Below, in pieces: positions 8,455-25,501 of a DNA stretch of 64,000 nt. Position numbers and translations under genes: made by a program. Under the pieces are notes generated by a model. The model was not told the DNA's origin. It searched no databases and saw only the letters and a list, made by a program, of their open reading frames with translations. Origin of the DNA: Phreatobacter stygius (GTDB taxonomy: Bacteria > Pseudomonadota > Alphaproteobacteria > Rhizobiales > Phreatobacteraceae). Location of the stretch: NCBI RefSeq assembly GCF_005144885.1, contig NZ_CP039690.1, forward strand, positions 5,035,001 to 5,099,000, given 5' to 3'. Position 1 is the stretch's first letter. The number at the start of each line of letters is the position of its first letter.

Positions 8455-8900
8455 TCTGTGGTGGTCGGCATTATGACGACGCGGCCGCCATTCGGCGCGA
8501 GCTTGACCGCCTGCATGGCGGCCAGCCGATCGGCGTGCTCATCCATGGCGGGCTGGCGGCGATCGGCAATGCCGCCGAGGCCTGGGCGCGCGAGCACAAC
8601 GTCCATGTCGTGCGTTATCCGCCGAACTGGACGCTGCTCGGCAACCGAGCCGAGGCGCGGCGCAATGCCTTCATGCTCGAAGACAGCCGGCCGGATGTTC
8701 TGCTGGCCTTCCCGGGCGGGCGCGATACGGCGGATCTCGTCCGTCTCGCGCGGGTCGCGGCAACGCCGGTCCGGCTGGCGCCCGCCGGTCGGCCCGGATG
8801 CGGTGCCGAGGCAAAGTCCAGCGACAGTCCGGAGGGCCGATCGCGAGGCTTTTCCCGGCATGGCCTGACAGCCGTCGGCTGCTCGCTGTGGGCAGCCTGA
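8442..8900 (+). CDS. DUF2493 (SLOG-family) protein
   Basis: 152 aa. MRVLICGGRHYDD, IGVLIHGGLAAIGNAAEAWA and VLLAFPGGRDTADLV match the DUF2493 / YspA group of the SLOG (cpYpsA-like) Rossmann superfamily, predicted to bind nucleotide-type ligands. Domain residues fill 1-110. The tail of about 40 residues after VRLAP is low-complexity and unlike the family; it may follow a lost original stop codon. Role unknown. Confidence 0.75.
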   Translation: MRVLICGGRHYDDAAAIRRELDRLHGGQPIGVLIHGGLAAIGNAAEAWAREHNVHVVRYPPNWTLLGNRAEARRNAFMLEDSRPDVLLAFPGGRDTADLVRLARVAATPVRLAPAGRPGCGAEAKSSDSPEGRSRGFSRHGLTAVGCSLWAA

Positions 8901-8956
8901 CACACGCCCTTCACAAACTATCGAAACATAACGCAACATCTCGACACAGGTGATCA

Positions 8957-10357
8957 ATGACACGCCAGATTCGGCTTGCGATGCCCCTTGGGCTCGCCCC
9001 ACGCTTGAAGCTCCGCACCCTCGCATCGGCCGCGCTGTTGTCGCTCGCCGCCATTCCCGCTCACGCCCAGGGTTGGTCCTATCCGACCGGCGAGCGGGTG
9101 GCCGAGGATGTCCGGATCAACGCCCAGCTGACCGAGTTCATCCAGGGCTATCCGAGCTTCCGGGTACCCTATAGCGGGCAGAACAGCCTGCCGCCGGGCG
9201 GCCAGGTGCGCCAGTCGACCAGCATCACCGCCTATATGGGCTTCCGTCTGCCCTGGACCGGCGGCGAACTCTATTTCAACCCGGAATATTTCCAGGGCTT
9301 CGGCCTCGGCGATACGCTGGGCATTGCCGGCTTCACCAATGGCGACGCCCAGAAGGCCGGCAACCGGGTTGGCGTCCTGTCGGTCGCCAGGCTGTTCCTG
9401 CGCCAGACCTTCGCGCTCGGCCCCGAGACCGAATGGCGGCCGGGCGACTTCAACCAGCTCGCCGGTTTCGTGCCGACCCGCCGGGTGGTGGTCACCGTCG
9501 GCAAGTTCGCCTCCCTCGATATTTTCCAGACCAGCGCCTATGCCGGCGACACCCGGCGGCAGTTCTGGAACTGGTCGATCTGGGGGCCGGGCGCCTGGGA
9601 CGTCGCGGCCGACGTGCGCGGTTATACCCAAGGTGTTGCGATCGAGGTGATCCCGGATCCGGCGCTCGCGATCCGCTATGGCGCGCTGCTCTTGCCCTCG
9701 CAGCCGAATGGCGGCGAGCTGCCGTTCCGCATGAACAACCTCAACCATATCCTGGAGGTTGCCTATCAGCACCGCTGGTTCGGCCGGCCCGGCGCGATCA
9801 AGCCTTTCGCCTTCTATTCGGTCGGCGCCATGGGCAATTACAGCCAAGCCGGCGTGATCAGTGCCGGCGGCGGGCTGACGCCGGACGAGGCGATGGCCAC
9901 CACCCGCCGCTTCGGCAACCAGAAATGGGGTTTCGGCCTGCTGGTCGACCAGGAACTCGCCGACAATGTCGGTGCCTTCCTGCGCGCCAGCTGGAGCGAC
10001 GGCAAGACCGAGACCTTCGCGTTCACCCAGATCGACCGCTCGGTGTCGTTCGGCCTGAGTTTCAAGGGCGAGTTGTGGAACCGGCCGGGCCATTCGGCCG
10101 GCATCGCGGTGGCGCAGAACGATCTGTCCAGCCACCACAAGCAGTTCCTCGCCTCCGGCGGCACCGGCATCATCGTCGGCGACGGGCGCTTGAGGTACGG
10201 CAGCGAGCGGCTGATGGAGGCCTATTACGAGCTGCCGGTCTACCGCGACAACGTCTTCGTCGCGGCCAATTACCAGCTCGTCCACAATCCCGGCTACAAC
10301 CGCGACCGCGCCGGCCCGGTCCATGTCTTCGGCATGCGCATCCACGCCCGCTACTGA
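8957..10357 (+). CDS. Carbohydrate-selective porin, OprB family
   Basis: 466 aa outer-membrane beta-barrel. A signal peptide ends near AIPAHAQG (about residue 38). The mature part alternates aromatic beta strands (AYMGFRLPWTGGELYFNPEYFQGFG, KWGFGLLVDQELADNVGAFLRASW, NVFVAANYQLVHNPGYNRDRAGPVHVFGMRIHARY) and ends in Tyr, as outer-membrane proteins need. The repeated gorgeous 'NPGYNRDRGPV' pattern is an OprB hallmark. It may admit sugars or acids; it converges on the amino-acid ABC operon with only 16 bases between stops. Confidence 0.8.
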   Translation: MTRQIRLAMPLGLAPRLKLRTLASAALLSLAAIPAHAQGWSYPTGERVAEDVRINAQLTEFIQGYPSFRVPYSGQNSLPPGGQVRQSTSITAYMGFRLPWTGGELYFNPEYFQGFGLGDTLGIAGFTNGDAQKAGNRVGVLSVARLFLRQTFALGPETEWRPGDFNQLAGFVPTRRVVVTVGKFASLDIFQTSAYAGDTRRQFWNWSIWGPGAWDVAADVRGYTQGVAIEVIPDPALAIRYGALLLPSQPNGGELPFRMNNLNHILEVAYQHRWFGRPGAIKPFAFYSVGAMGNYSQAGVISAGGGLTPDEAMATTRRFGNQKWGFGLLVDQELADNVGAFLRASWSDGKTETFAFTQIDRSVSFGLSFKGELWNRPGHSAGIAVAQNDLSSHHKQFLASGGTGIIVGDGRLRYGSERLMEAYYELPVYRDNVFVAANYQLVHNPGYNRDRAGPVHVFGMRIHARY

Positions 10358-10373
10358 GCCGGACCGGCGCGCC

Positions 10374-11096
10374 TCACACCCGCCGGCTGAGGAAACTCTT
10401 CAGCCGCGGGTGGCTGGGGCTGTCGATCAGGTCCGCCGGCGCGCCGCGTTCGGCGACGCGGCCTTGCTCCATGAACCAGATCTCGTCGGCCACCTCGCGG
10501 GCAAAACCCATTTCGTGGGTGACACAGATCATGGTCATGCCGGCCGCCGCGAGCTGCTTCATGGCGGCGAGCACTTCGCCGACCATTTCCGGGTCGAGCG
10601 CCGAGGTCGGCTCGTCGAACAGCATGGCCTCGGGGTCCATGGCGAGCGCGCGGGCAATGGCGACGCGCTGGCGCTGGCCGCCGGAGAGCTTGCCCGGCAT
10701 CTCGTCGGCCTTGTCGGCCAAACCGACACGGGCGAGTTCGGCGAGCGCCCGCTCGCGCGCTTCCGGCTTGGCCATGTTGCGCAGCTTGGTCAGTCCCAGC
10801 GTGATATTGCCGGCCGCGGTCAGGTGCGGGAACAGGTTATAGGCCTGGAACACGAAGCCGACGCGCTGGCGCAGCGCATTGATGTCGAGGCCGCGGCCGG
10901 CAATGTCCTGGCCGTCGACCGTGACGCGGCCGCCCTGGATCGCCTCGAGCCGGGTCACCGTGCGGATCAGCGTCGACTTGCCGGAGCCCGATGGCCCGAC
11001 CAGCACCTTGACCTCGCCGCGGCGGACCTCGCCGGAGACCCCGGCGAGCGCCTGCATCGGCCCGAACCATTTGTCGACATTCTCGAAGCGGATCAT
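10374..11096 (-). CDS. Polar amino-acid ABC transporter ATPase
   Basis: 240 aa. Walker A is GPSGSGKST, the signature is [17 protein letters not shown], Walker B is MLFDEP, and the switch His is in [14 protein letters not shown], as in GltL/GlnQ-type ATPases. Last gene of the operon that runs from RraA at 15376. Seven bases separate it from the second permease. It energises uptake of a polar, probably acidic, amino acid. Confidence 0.9.
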
Positions 11097-21109: not shown

Positions 21110-21625
21110 TCAGCCGCCCAAGCGCTCGTAGACGGCCGAATTGCCGGCATGCTCGCGCACCTCGACGGATTCGAGCCAGACCCGGCCATGGGTCTCGGCC
21201 TTGATCGACGGCGCCACGTGGTCGAAGACGAATTTTGCCGTCGCCTCGCAGCCGACCGCCGGCAGGATGCGCAGGTCGACCAAGCCGTCCGCGGCCATCT
21301 TGCGGAATGTCGCGAGCTCGGGGTCGTCCTCGGCCACCACCATGGTGTGGTCGAACATCTCGTGCAGCCACGCCTTGACCGGCTTCATGCCGCCGAAGTC
21401 GTAGCACCAGTTGCGCTCATCGAGTTCATGGGTGGCGAAAACGAACTTGAAGGCCAGCGCGTAGCCGTGGACGAAACGGCAATGGGAATGGCTCGCCCGC
21501 CATTGCCGGAAGCAGCAGGACAGGCCCTCATTGTGGTCGTAGCTTTTGGTCGACCGGTAGGTCTCGCGCTGGCTCGGCTTGAGGCGTTGCACGTCGGGGA
21601 TGATCGAAACCGCTGAATCGGCCAT
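21110..21625 (-). CDS. queD: 6-carboxytetrahydropterin / 6-pyruvoyl-tetrahydropterin synthase family
   Basis: 171 aa T-fold enzyme acting on dihydroneopterin triphosphate, the product of FolE. The catalytic Cys and a zinc His are in HCRFVHGYAL; DFGGMKPVKAWLHEMFDH and the Glu-containing VREHAGNSAVYE complete the fold. Canonical QueD has HGH where this has HGY, so one zinc ligand must differ or come from the nearby HSH. It is 34 bases downstream of folE on the same strand. It may make the queuosine precursor or a signalling pterin; no queC or queE is nearby. Confidence 0.75.
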   Translation of the reverse strand: MADSAVSIIPDVQRLKPSQRETYRSTKSYDHNEGLSCCFRQWRASHSHCRFVHGYALAFKFVFATHELDERNWCYDFGGMKPVKAWLHEMFDHTMVVAEDDPELATFRKMAADGLVDLRILPAVGCEATAKFVFDHVAPSIKAETHGRVWLESVEVREHAGNSAVYERLGG

Positions 21626-21659
21626 GTCGGTGCCTCGTGTCAGTGCTTCGCTCGACGCT

Positions 21660-22325
21660 TCATCGCCGGTCCAGGGCTGCGCATTCCTGCAGGAATTCCG
21701 CCTTGAGCGCCGATGACGTGGCCATCTCGCCGTAAAATGTGCTGTTGACCATCCGGCTCGCGTGGCTGGCGCGCACGCCGCGGTGGGTCTTGCACATATG
21801 GACAGCGCTGATACGCACCGCCAGCCCGCGCGGATTGGTGGTCTCGACGATATATTGCTCGATCTGCTTAACCAGCTCTTCCTGGATCTGCAGGCGGGTG
21901 CCGAAATAATTGACGATCCGGTCGTATTTGGACAGGCCGATGATCTTGCCGTCGACCGAGGGCAGCACGCCGATATAGGCGCTGCCGTAGATCGGCATCA
22001 TGTGATGGGCGCAGGTCGAGCGCAGCTCGATCGGTCCGGTGACGATCAACTGGTCGTAGCGGGCGGCATTCTCGAACTCGGTGATCTTCGGCGGCGGCAC
22101 ATAGCGCCCGTGAAGGATCTCCTCGACGAACATCTTGGCGACGCGGGCCGGCGTGTCGCGGGTGTTGTGATCATTGCGGTGATCGATCTTCAGGACATCG
22201 AACAGCTCTTCGAGCTTTTCGGCCGCGGATGCCATCATCGCGGCACGCTCGGCCTTGTCCAGGAAGCCGTCGACGGCCTCGTTGCCGAACCGAGCGCAAT
22301 TCGCCAAAACGTTGTTCTTTGTCAT
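21660..22325 (-). CDS. folE: GTP cyclohydrolase I
   Basis: 221 aa. RDTPARVAKMFVEEILHG, STCAHHMMPIYGSAYIGVLP, IIGLSKYDRIVNYFG and HMCKTHRGVRA match FolE, including the zinc ligands Cys, His and Cys. It converts GTP to 7,8-dihydroneopterin triphosphate. The ATG at 22325 is preferred because GAGAGAA lies just upstream; an ATG four codons earlier lacks a site. It forms an operon with the QueD-family gene and is divergent from the PruR-DcpA-like pair. Confidence 0.92.
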   Translation of the reverse strand: MTKNNVLANCARFGNEAVDGFLDKAERAAMMASAAEKLEELFDVLKIDHRNDHNTRDTPARVAKMFVEEILHGRYVPPPKITEFENAARYDQLIVTGPIELRSTCAHHMMPIYGSAYIGVLPSVDGKIIGLSKYDRIVNYFGTRLQIQEELVKQIEQYIVETTNPRGLAVRISAVHMCKTHRGVRASHASRMVNSTFYGEMATSSALKAEFLQECAALDRR

Positions 22326-22362
22326 GCGTTCTCTCAATGGCTGTACGCCGATATGAAAAGTA

Positions 22363-22376
22363 TAACCTATTGGTTA
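22363..22376. promoter_or_regulatory. Dyad between folE and the pruR-like gene
   Basis: TAACC-TATT-GGTTA, perfect 5-bp arms in the only AT-rich stretch of the divergent region, 38 bases from the folE start. It could control both directions. No regulator gene is adjacent, and I do not recognise a preQ1 or tetrahydrofolate riboswitch here. Confidence 0.4.
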
Positions 22377-22515
22377 CCGGAATATTGTGTGTCCCGGATC
22401 AGCGGGCGTATCATGCTGGTAACGTGCAACTGCCAGGATCAGCTGGCGGGTTCACCGATTGTTATGTGCATTTGTGGGAATTTCAGGTCGCCTTCGCGTA
22501 GCAAGGGAGTTCATG

Positions 22516-23040
22516 ATGCCGGTCAACAATATCAGGCGTTCATTTAGCTTGGGTGCAATCGCCGCGGCGGGCCTCCTTATCTGTGGCCGCGCTTCCGCTC
22601 AAGGTCTGGCGACCCCGGCCGAAAGGGTCATGTTGACGATCTCCGGTAAGATCTCCGTGACCAATGTCGGCAATACCGCGCAATTCGACCGCGCCATGCT
22701 CGAAGCCATGGGGCTGGTGTCCTTCGAGACCTCGACGCCGTGGCATTCGGGTCCGCAGAAGTTCGAGGGCGTGTCGATCGACAAGCTCTTGAAAAGCGTC
22801 GGCGCCAGCGGCGACCGCATCCAGGCGATCGCGCTCAATGATTATACCACCGAGATTCCGATCGAGGATTTCACCCGCTACAACGTCATTCTCGCGCTCA
22901 AGCGCAACAACGAATACATGCCTGTGCGGGACAAGGGCCCGCTGTTCATCGTCTATCCCTACGATTCCGACCCCGAGCTGCGAAGCCAGAAATATTACAG
23001 CCGCTCGGCCTGGCAGCTCTCCCAGATCATTGTCCGCTGA
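22516..23040 (+). CDS. pruR: Periplasmic SUOX-fold protein, PruR-like pterin-binding
   Basis: 174 aa with a signal peptide ending near GRASAQG. The mature part has the molybdopterin-oxidoreductase fold pattern (LTISGKISVTN, KFEGVSIDKLLKSVG, IQAIALNDYTTEIPI, GPLFIVYPYD). It contains no cysteine at all, so the molybdenum-coordinating Cys of true enzymes is absent. In Agrobacterium such a protein, PruR, binds pterins and controls the GGDEF-EAL enzyme DcpA encoded next to it, exactly the order seen here. The ATG at 22516 sits six bases after GGGAG. Confidence 0.7.
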   Translation: MPVNNIRRSFSLGAIAAAGLLICGRASAQGLATPAERVMLTISGKISVTNVGNTAQFDRAMLEAMGLVSFETSTPWHSGPQKFEGVSIDKLLKSVGASGDRIQAIALNDYTTEIPIEDFTRYNVILALKRNNEYMPVRDKGPLFIVYPYDSDPELRSQKYYSRSAWQLSQIIVR

Positions 23041-23092
23041 CTGACGTGGCAGCCTCACCGGTCCCCATCGCGCGGCACGCCCAAACCGGACC

Positions 23093-25501
23093 ATGGTCAT
23101 GCCGAAGCTGAGCCGGGTTGGGATCCTGTTCGGGCTGATCATGTTGGGCCTGGTGGCGGCGGCCGTCTATGTCTCGGTCCTGATCGTCGAGCGGCAGAGC
23201 ATCATCCGCCAGACCGCGCGCTACAACGTGACCTGGCTGGCAAGCCAGGCGGCCTTCGAAGTGGTGCGTTTCGAAGAGGTCGTCGCGGCTTCGGCGCTGC
23301 CGAACAGCCCGGTCACCGCCGACGACGTCGACCTGCGTTATCAGATCCTGCTCAACCGGCTCGAGCTGATGAACTCGGGCGAGTTCGAGGATTTCGTCGA
23401 GCAGGATCCCGAGCGGCGGCAGATCGTGGCCGATCTCGGCCGGGTCCTGGCCGAGATCGCGCCGCTGGTGGAGAAGGTCAGCCAGGGCGACAATGTCAGC
23501 CGTATCCGGGCCATGCTCGCCCCGCTCGACAAGAAACTGGCGGGCCTCGCCGCTTCGGCCAACCGGGTCTCGGGCGACAATGTCGATGCCGACCAGCGCA
23601 ATCTGCTGCGCCTGCACTGGATCTTCTCCAGCCTGATCGCGGCGCTGGTCATCGCCGGCCTCGTGCTGATGCTGATGCTCTATCGCCGCCATATCCAGCT
23701 CAACCGGGCCCATGACGAAGTGCATGTCCTGGCCGGCGTGCTGGAAGAGGCCAAGCTCGACCTGGAACAGGCCAATGTCGAAATCCTCAGCACCAATGCC
23801 GACCTCAAGCAGCGCAACGAGATGCTGCAGATCCGCGACGTCGAGCTCAGAACCCAGAACCAGCGTTTCGACGCGGCGTTGAACAACATGTCGCAAGGCC
23901 TGCTGCTGGTTGACGGCATGCATCGCCTGATCGTCTGCAATCAGCGCTATCGCGAAATATTCAACCTGAGGGAGCAATGGGTGCAGCCGGGGGCGACGAT
24001 ACGCGCACTCGGCACTCAGCGTTTTGCCGGGCTGATCGACCGGCAGAACAGCATCGCCGCCGATCGCGCCTCGGCGACCTTCGCCTTTGAGCTGGACGAC
24101 GACACGATCGTCTCGGTCTCGCAGCAGCCGATGCCGGACGGCGGCTGGGTCTCGACCTACGAAGACATTACCGAGCGGCGGCGTTCCGAGGAGCGCATCG
24201 CCCATATGGCGCACCACGATGCGCTGACCGATCTGCCGAACCGCACCCTGTTTCGCGCGCGGATGGACGATGCCTTGGCCGACAAGCGGGGCAGCAAAGC
24301 CAATTTCGCGATCTTCTATCTCGATCTCGACAACTTCAAGATCGTCAACGACTCGCTCGGTCATGCGGTCGGCGATCTGCTGCTCAGGAGCGTCGCCGAC
24401 CGGTTGAAGGAATGCGTCCGCGATGGCGATATCGTCTCCCGTTTCGGCGGCGACGAATTCGCCATCATGTTCCGTGGCGGCGGCGGCAGCGCCGAGATGC
24501 AGGGCATGGCGCAACGCCTGGTCGACCGGACCCGGCAGCCGTTTTCGATCGAGGGCAACGAGCTCAGCATCGGCACCTGTGTCGGCATCGCGATCGCCGG
24601 CAAGGACGGCCTGGATTCCGACGAACTGCTGCGCAACGCCGACATGGCGCTCTATCGCGCCAAGAACGAGGGACGTGGCAGCTATCGCTTCTTCGAGGCG
24701 TCGATGAAGGCCGAGCTCAATGCCAGGCGTGCGCTGGAGGAGGACCTGCGCTCGGCCCTCGGCGCCGGCGAATTCGCCGTCCACTATCAGCCGATCGTCA
24801 ACCTGAAGACCATGACGGTGGTCAGTTTCGAAGCGCTGATCCGGTGGAACCATCCTGAGCGGGGCGAGGTCGTCCCGGCCGAATTCGTGCCTGTCGCCGA
24901 GGAGACCGGGCTGATCGTCGCCATTGGCGAATGGGTTCTGCGGCAGGCCTGCGTCGATGCCGCGTCATGGCCTGGCCCGACCCGCGTCTCGGTCAATCTG
25001 TCCGCCGTCCAGTTCAGGACGGGACAGTTCGCCCAGACCGTCTTTGCCGCCTTGTCCGCCTCGGGGCTCGCGCCCAACCGGCTGGAACTCGAGATCACCG
25101 AGACGGTGCTTCTGCAGGACAGCGAGGCGACGCTGGCGATCCTGCATCAATTGCGCTCGTTCGGCATCCGCACCTGCATGGACGATTTCGGCACCGGCTA
25201 TTCCTCGCTCAGCTATCTCCGCAGCTTTCCCTTCGACAAGATCAAGATCGACCGCTCCTTCGTCAGCGAGGTCAACGACCGCGAGGACTGCCGCGCCATC
25301 GTTACCTCGATCACCGATCTCGGCCGCAGTCTCAACATGGTGACCACCGCCGAGGGCGTCGAAACGCGCGCCCAGTTCGACACGATCAACGAGATCGGCT
25401 GCGCCGAGATCCAGGGCTTCTATTTTGGTCATCCGGTGCCGGCGGCGGAGGTCGAGGAAGCCTTCACCCGGATCGAGCGGCTCTTGAGCCAGGCGGCCTG
25501 A
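23093..25501 (+). CDS. dcpA: Dual GGDEF-EAL c-di-GMP enzyme, DcpA-like
   Basis: 802 aa. Membrane helices near 10-32 and 181-203 enclose a periplasmic sensor region; a coiled coil follows (about 205-260), then a PAS-like domain (262-360), GGDEF (GGDEF at 452-456) and EAL (EAL at 580-582, DDFGTG later). Both catalytic motifs are intact, so it may synthesise and degrade c-di-GMP. It lies 52 bases after the PruR-like gene. By analogy with Agrobacterium DcpA, ligand-bound PruR would contact the periplasmic domain and favour phosphodiesterase output. Confidence 0.85.
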   Translation: MVMPKLSRVGILFGLIMLGLVAAAVYVSVLIVERQSIIRQTARYNVTWLASQAAFEVVRFEEVVAASALPNSPVTADDVDLRYQILLNRLELMNSGEFEDFVEQDPERRQIVADLGRVLAEIAPLVEKVSQGDNVSRIRAMLAPLDKKLAGLAASANRVSGDNVDADQRNLLRLHWIFSSLIAALVIAGLVLMLMLYRRHIQLNRAHDEVHVLAGVLEEAKLDLEQANVEILSTNADLKQRNEMLQIRDVELRTQNQRFDAALNNMSQGLLLVDGMHRLIVCNQRYREIFNLREQWVQPGATIRALGTQRFAGLIDRQNSIAADRASATFAFELDDDTIVSVSQQPMPDGGWVSTYEDITERRRSEERIAHMAHHDALTDLPNRTLFRARMDDALADKRGSKANFAIFYLDLDNFKIVNDSLGHAVGDLLLRSVADRLKECVRDGDIVSRFGGDEFAIMFRGGGGSAEMQGMAQRLVDRTRQPFSIEGNELSIGTCVGIAIAGKDGLDSDELLRNADMALYRAKNEGRGSYRFFEASMKAELNARRALEEDLRSALGAGEFAVHYQPIVNLKTMTVVSFEALIRWNHPERGEVVPAEFVPVAEETGLIVAIGEWVLRQACVDAASWPGPTRVSVNLSAVQFRTGQFAQTVFAALSASGLAPNRLELEITETVLLQDSEATLAILHQLRSFGIRTCMDDFGTGYSSLSYLRSFPFDKIKIDRSFVSEVNDREDCRAIVTSITDLGRSLNMVTTAEGVETRAQFDTINEIGCAEIQGFYFGHPVPAAEVEEAFTRIERLLSQAA

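Follow-up and report, generated by a model that had tools for sequence, protein, structure and literature searches.

A FolE-QueD pair recurrently linked to PruR and its membrane sensor: a probable pterin signalling cassette in Phreatobacter stygius and related bacteria

A 64,000-nucleotide stretch of the Phreatobacter stygius genome (contig NZ_CP039690.1, positions 5,035,001 to 5,099,000 of the forward strand; hereafter the window) carries, at positions 21110 to 25501, two divergent gene pairs separated by about 190 bases. One pair encodes a GTP cyclohydrolase I (FolE) and a QueD-family protein, and the other a protein that, judged by its sequence, is the periplasmic pterin-binding protein PruR, followed by a membrane protein assigned on the same grounds to DcpA. 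The existence of a recurring cassette joining FolE-QueD to PruR and its sensor is well supported by comparison of gene neighborhoods, and we consider it probable that these genes form a pterin signalling cassette in which the product of QueD loads PruR. By family and motif assignment, the locus is a variant of the PruR-DcpA and PruR-DTB systems to which a FolE-QueD pair has been added. The four-gene layout given in the original prediction, made from this sequence alone, is borne out by the open reading frames (ORFs) and by Pfam matches:

21110..21625, minus strand: QueD-family protein (COG0720/PTPS) of the C-x3-HGY type; Pfam PTPS; predicted 6-carboxytetrahydropterin synthase-like enzyme
21660..22322, minus strand: folE, GTP cyclohydrolase I of a phage-like subtype, second folE of the genome; Pfam GTP_cyclohydroI, 148.9 bits
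22323..22515, no strand: divergent intergenic region; GC content 0.50, against 0.655 for the window
22516..23040, plus strand: pruR, predicted periplasmic pterin-binding protein of SUOX fold without the molybdenum-ligand Cys; Pfam Oxidored_molyb; 190 bits to structure 7kos
23093..25501, plus strand: dcpA, membrane protein with a periplasmic WX7E domain, PAS, GGDEF and EAL; Pfam PAS_7, GGDEF and EAL

The start of pruR was placed at the ATG at 22516 rather than at the TTG at 22459, and dcpA lies directly downstream of pruR after 52 bases. The closest solved relatives of the 174-residue PruR are the Agrobacterium PruR structures 7kos and 7rkb (the latter at 180 bits). Three residues, Asn102, Tyr104 and Trp160, are named as pterin contacts in a 2026 review of these systems (PMC13259868). 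Their equivalents, on which the original prediction had staked the PruR assignment, are all kept in the alignment of the window protein and in 44/44 aligned QueD-linked PruRs, counted after L073 (28% match) and L080 (cut by a contig end) had been dropped. The Trp160 equivalent stands where SUOX proteins have their molybdenum-ligand Cys. The sole Cys is residue 23, inside a predicted signal peptide recognized by eye as a hydrophobic N-terminus ending in ASAQ, so that the earlier description of a protein with no cysteine is right for the protein beyond the signal peptide but not for the full translation.

In the window DcpA, the WX7E motif reads WLASQAAFE at residue 48, GGDEF is found at residue 452 with an RxxD site just upstream, EALIRW at residue 580, and a DDFGTGYSS motif is also present; both catalytic motifs are thus intact in the translation, as first proposed, and together with the match to 7kos and the contact residues they sustain the PruR-DcpA identity. 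According to the review text, PruA makes a tetrahydropterin that PruR binds in the periplasm, the A. tumefaciens PruR prefers tetrahydro- over dihydropterins, and PruR-DcpA or PruR-DTB pairs number more than 5500 unique sequences (PMC13259868). The window locus shares with the PruA-PruR-DcpA system of Agrobacterium tumefaciens the PruR fold and contact residues, a WX7E-bearing DcpA with GGDEF-EAL, and the two-gene pruR-dcpA unit; it differs in the linkage of FolE-QueD, whereas in Agrobacterium the ligand is supplied by PruA (PMC13259868). The PruR-DTB systems, in which the output is a histidine kinase, differ from the window locus in that the window sensor is of the DcpA type and FolE-QueD linkage is added, yet kinases do replace GGDEF-EAL in a part of the linked sensors described below.

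The evidence that carries this interpretation is the repeated association of the genes. A sample of 150 genomes drawn at order level yielded PruR in 52 (E threshold 0.001, many of the matches weak). Apart from the window genome, only two of the sampled genomes had a QueD relative above 45% identity: G145 at 70% and G037 at 48%, the latter in phage-like surroundings. The divergent four-gene arrangement of the window is reproduced in G145, a one-contig genome belonging to a different family; the remaining four genomes of the window genus lack both a QueD relative and PruR. A scan of 84,980 species genomes was then used to collect QueD loci, of which the best 80 of 85 were compared: 51 near loci with 60 to 87% QueD identity and 29 more distant loci with 43 to 55%. 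Within the fetched flanks, FolE accompanies 46/51 near QueDs, PruR 43/51, and all four genes are found in 40/51; PruR is near none of the 29 distant QueDs, 21 of which have FolE at 31 to 38% identity. PruR and QueD are separated by a median gap of 959 bases. The 43 linked loci fall into 26 divergent, eight co-directional (FolE-QueD-PruR-sensor) and five convergent arrangements (the last in Bradyrhizobium), with two divergent loci lacking FolE (L062 and L068, in which QueD alone is kept beside PruR), one split locus (L081) and one cut by a contig end (L080). Because PruR is present in only 52 of the 150 sampled genomes, its occurrence within about 8 kb of a given gene would be rare by chance, and the survival of the linkage through rearrangement constitutes the main argument for a joint function of the four genes. 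The proposal that one locus joins pterin synthesis to pterin sensing, and the prospect that its gene order would recur in other genomes, both find their support in these 43 loci.

The sensors provide a second line of support. Among 43 sensors found through the DcpA N-terminal region, the output varies (GGDEF in 31, histidine kinase in nine) and the input is constant (WX7E in 42). Seven of the kinases were called by motif and two (L072, L077) by their ATPase tail; three sensors lack a full reading: L074 is truncated where its contig ends, and the frames of L083 and L092 are broken. In these last two loci, both from Bradyrhizobium, pruR, folE and queD remain beside the broken dcpA, with queD and folE of L092 also split. 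The only sensor without WX7E, in which the Trp is lost, is a DcpA-like protein directly after queD in L061 (Lichenibacterium, 8555-10899); no pruR adjoins it, and loss of the docking residue may have gone along with loss of the receptor.

The enzymatic half of the cassette is less conventional. The window FolE passes the Pfam GTP_cyclohydroI cut-off of 27 bits by a wide margin and reads TCAHH and MCKTHRG, which hold the Cys-His-His and the later Cys of the metal site. Its score against phrog_2197 is 171 bits, whereas no NCBIfam FolE model gives more than 145, short of the cut-offs of these models; the genome also has an ordinary folE (237 bits) at C1:6360061. The QueD-family protein likewise stays at 29.6 bits, under the NCBIfam QueD equivalog cut-off of 89.25, and matches phrog_2389 at 7.9e-41 over profile positions 4-149 of 158; its AlphaFold model, with a predicted local distance difference test (pLDDT) score of 89.6, matches the PTPS fold. 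Both proteins hence score best against phage families and under the curated bacterial cut-offs. QueD relatives occur in 105 of 50,697 phage records, all below 60% identity. On these matches the pair may be of phage origin; the trees give no direction for it.

The CxxxHGH motif that defines the queuosine QueD (PTPS-I) (PMC5041015) is not found in the window protein, which reads C-x3-HGY and neighbors pruR-dcpA rather than queC-queE. The original prediction took HGY as the mark of a special pterin, a reading that the family does not bear out: C-x3-HGY is present in 78/80 fetched QueD loci, the other two being one broken and one fragmentary frame, and an HGY-type QueD is encoded in a marine archaeal operon, folE-queE-queC-msrB-queD (genes named from their translations). 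In an Acinetobacter phage, deposited annotation places queE, queC, queD, GTP cyclohydrolase and tgt side by side, and its QueD is a relative whose HGY was not read. Since the motif is family-wide and includes the archaeal preQ0 operon, HGY goes with ordinary preQ0 synthesis and, because relatives sit in archaeal and phage preQ0 clusters, the HGY family most likely makes 6-carboxytetrahydropterin, as far as gene context can tell. The window pair resembles these phage and archaeal FolE-QueD pairs in its best-matching families, phrog_2389 and phrog_2197, but the preQ0 clusters carry queC-queE, and PruR is absent from the 29 distant loci examined. One duplicate was noted in passing: identical QueDs occur in a Euryarchaeota bin (L112) and a Flammeovirgaceae bin (L113), probably through a binning error in one of them.

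In the proposed model, FolE would convert GTP to dihydroneopterin triphosphate, and the HGY-type QueD would turn this into a fully reduced pterin without a PruA-type reductase, most likely 6-carboxy-5,6,7,8-tetrahydropterin or a close derivative. The pterin would reach the periplasm by export and bind PruR, and PruR so loaded would dock on the periplasmic WX7E domain of the sensor, which is DcpA or, in some relatives, a histidine kinase. This docking would set the output of the sensor, which for the window DcpA means how much c-di-GMP is made relative to how much is broken down. That PruR is loaded by the QueD product is the best candidate explanation of the sequence evidence.

Several observations weigh against this reading, and the first two concern the linkage itself, which is one-sided: a QueD lies beside PruR in just 1/29 PruR loci from the order-level sample. 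A further one of these 29, L010 (G026:C198), has a PruR-sensor pair and a FolE (56% identical) at a contig end, and is probably another cassette cut off before queD. Moreover, eight of the 51 near loci have no PruR nearby (L041, L059, L061, L064, L073, L076, L078 and L079), although in L041 QueD is at a contig end and PruR linkage is not readable. In L064, L078 and L079 (Rhizobium lusitanum, Neorhizobium galegae and AFS068226), folE-queD stands without PruR beside GHMP-kinase-like, amidohydrolase, xanthine-dehydrogenase-like or luciferase-like genes and seems to have been recruited into another pathway. On the Rhizobium rhizogenes plasmid pC6.5b (L246:8001-11831), a condensation-domain gene lies between folE and the gene of a 65% QueD relative, close to short-chain dehydrogenase/reductase (SDR) and phosphopantetheine-binding genes, perhaps for a natural product derived from a pterin or a 7-deazapurine.

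A third observation concerns the active site. Cys27, His31, Asp70-His71 and Glu110 of E. coli QueD are matched by Cys49, His53, Asp92-His93 and Glu158 of the window protein. The position of His33, however, is occupied by Tyr55, and the His16 region does not align. In E. coli QueD, His16, His31 and His33 bind zinc. A metal site unlike that of E. coli QueD would fit an enzyme making another pterin, of pyruvoyl or hydroxymethyl type for instance, as the PruR ligand. We regard this as very unlikely, the Cys27, Asp70-His71 and Glu110 positions being kept and the HGY family being found in complete preQ0 gene sets, where 6-carboxytetrahydropterin is needed.

The fourth objection lies in the queuosine pathway. 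QueC is present in the window genome (231 bits) and a second obvious QueD is not, so that the cassette QueD may work for queuosine, either exclusively or in addition. The only other PTPS-family gene of the genome (L122:1450-1893, C1:1851401) was considered as a second, canonical QueD and rejected, since its motif is HGA and it is flanked, in a separate gene group, by a dehydrogenase-like and a glycosyltransferase-like ORF; PTPS genes of this HGA/T type (GPAQ-x2-HGA/T) also occur in L227, L229 and L233-L239. With QueC present and HGA in the only other candidate, the window cassette may also feed queuosine. Taken further, the QueD would be an ordinary queuosine enzyme, and its closeness to pruR-dcpA a matter of shared regulation or history rather than of ligand supply. 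Full-length QueC in 36/49 genomes (called without trees, from the bit-score gap between at least 185 and at most 31.6, with fragments of at most 59 bits set aside in genomes also holding a full QueC), a second, stronger PTPS-family match (at least 92 bits) in only 12/49, and the presence of HGY relatives in the full archaeal preQ0 cluster and of a relative in the phage one all favor this possibility. Against it, the 13 genomes without full-length QueC, whose best matches are at most 31.6 bits, keep a QueD, in every case linked to PruR (L055, with a 34-residue QueC piece, being doubtful), and the PruR linkage outlasts several rearrangements, which leaves a purely queuosine role unlikely in our judgement. 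All eight genomes with a QueD locus lacking PruR have QueC, yet the association of QueC absence with PruR linkage is statistically weak (13/13 against 28/36, Fisher p 0.09, ignoring kinship) and hence suggestive only. The plain existence of QueD beside PruR without full-length QueC, in eight isolates (six Microvirga and two Aurantimonas) plus G145, is the stronger point. The earlier suggestion that the enzyme may have a role other than queuosine synthesis thus finds support in those 13 genomes, a support that does not reach the window genome with its QueC.

The last objection comes from PruA. The review describes a pathway that requires PruA and gives TGX3RXG as the motif of pteridine reductases, and it also reports bacteria with PruR but without PruA (PMC13259868). 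A PruA/FolM-type reductase with this motif, Arg included, is encoded in the window genome, and PruA homologues (E of 1e-30 or better) were detected in 31 of 47 genomes searched, three of the 50 loci being outside them; the positives include L166, whose reductase reads TGAARRIG. The ligand may therefore be the PruA product, as in Agrobacterium, and a simple replacement of PruA by the cassette is not supported in the window genome. The same reductase, together with the lack of an identified pterin exporter, leaves the self-contained module of the original prediction unproved. Under this alternative, FolE would raise dihydropterin flux, PruA would make a ligand of the tetrahydromonapterin type, and QueD would drain the precursor and switch the signal off. 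This, too, we find improbable, and more so than a queuosine role. In the remaining 16 of the 47 genomes, relatives of the window locus that depart in this from Agrobacterium, no PruA-type reductase was found by profile search and motif reading of many SDR genes, and no Arg motif was seen in the 27 readable of 30 SDR loci fetched from them; a control with a C-terminal pattern matched 21/31 positives and 1/16 negatives. PruR linkage is seen in 13 of these 16 genomes; of the 13, seven come from isolates (two of Aurantimonas and five of Bradyrhizobium). Two of the near loci hold QueD beside PruR without FolE. Where PruA was not found, a QueD-type enzyme, the known product of which is a tetrahydropterin from the outset, would make PruA dispensable.

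In the QueD tree, which has several long branches, the near QueDs group together (support 95/96), separate from archaeal, phage-like and other sequences, and PruR linkage changes at least five times on this tree, three of the changes being forced by well-supported branches. In the PruR tree, which also has long branches, a branch of support 94/84 separates 27 PruRs that lack a QueD neighbor from the linked ones, and both solved PruRs, including that of A. tumefaciens, fall on the QueD-linked side. Since the solved PruRs group with linked ones in this one tree, a QueD-linked ancestor of the founding PruR is one possible reading.

An inverted repeat, TAACC-N4-GGTTA, lies at about 22366-22379, upstream of folE and between the divergent pairs, and is a possible candidate operator of the divergent promoters. 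Of the other upstream regions compared, only that of L039 has an almost intact copy, and simple counts of k-mers and inverted repeats showed no folE/pruR motif shared across species beyond L039. A GCGGC-N4-GCCGC repeat occurs in 6/46 upstream regions, against at most two in 20 mononucleotide shuffles, but it is itself rich in GC and there are near-copies among the rows; no Rfam riboswitch match was obtained in 22323-22515.

PruR-DcpA pairs have already been published, and the linked FolE-QueD pair looks new. The identity and source of the pterin that loads PruR is given as an open question in the 2026 review, whose main text is silent on QueD and on any folE linkage, folE appearing there solely as a general first step (PMC13259868); the literature searched, which did not cover the primary 2024 PruR paper, holds no mention of folE-queD-pruR linkage. 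The recurrence of a synthase pair beside the receptor makes 6-carboxytetrahydropterin a candidate for this ligand, and a small set of genomes that lack QueC or PruA would allow a test free of confusion with queuosine or monapterin. A bolder and more tentative possibility is that of a pterin autoinducer system comparable to LuxI-LuxR, in which FolE-QueD, a dedicated pair akin to those of phage and archaeal preQ0 clusters, would make a secreted 6-carboxytetrahydropterin or derivative perceived by a dedicated receptor, PruR with DcpA or a kinase, and from which the Agrobacterium PruR would have descended and switched to a PruA-made ligand. Present in many alphaproteobacteria and in several gene orders, the linkage suggests a signal that comes with a synthesis route and a receptor of its own; if this is true, an intermediate of queuosine synthesis would gain a second life as a signal.

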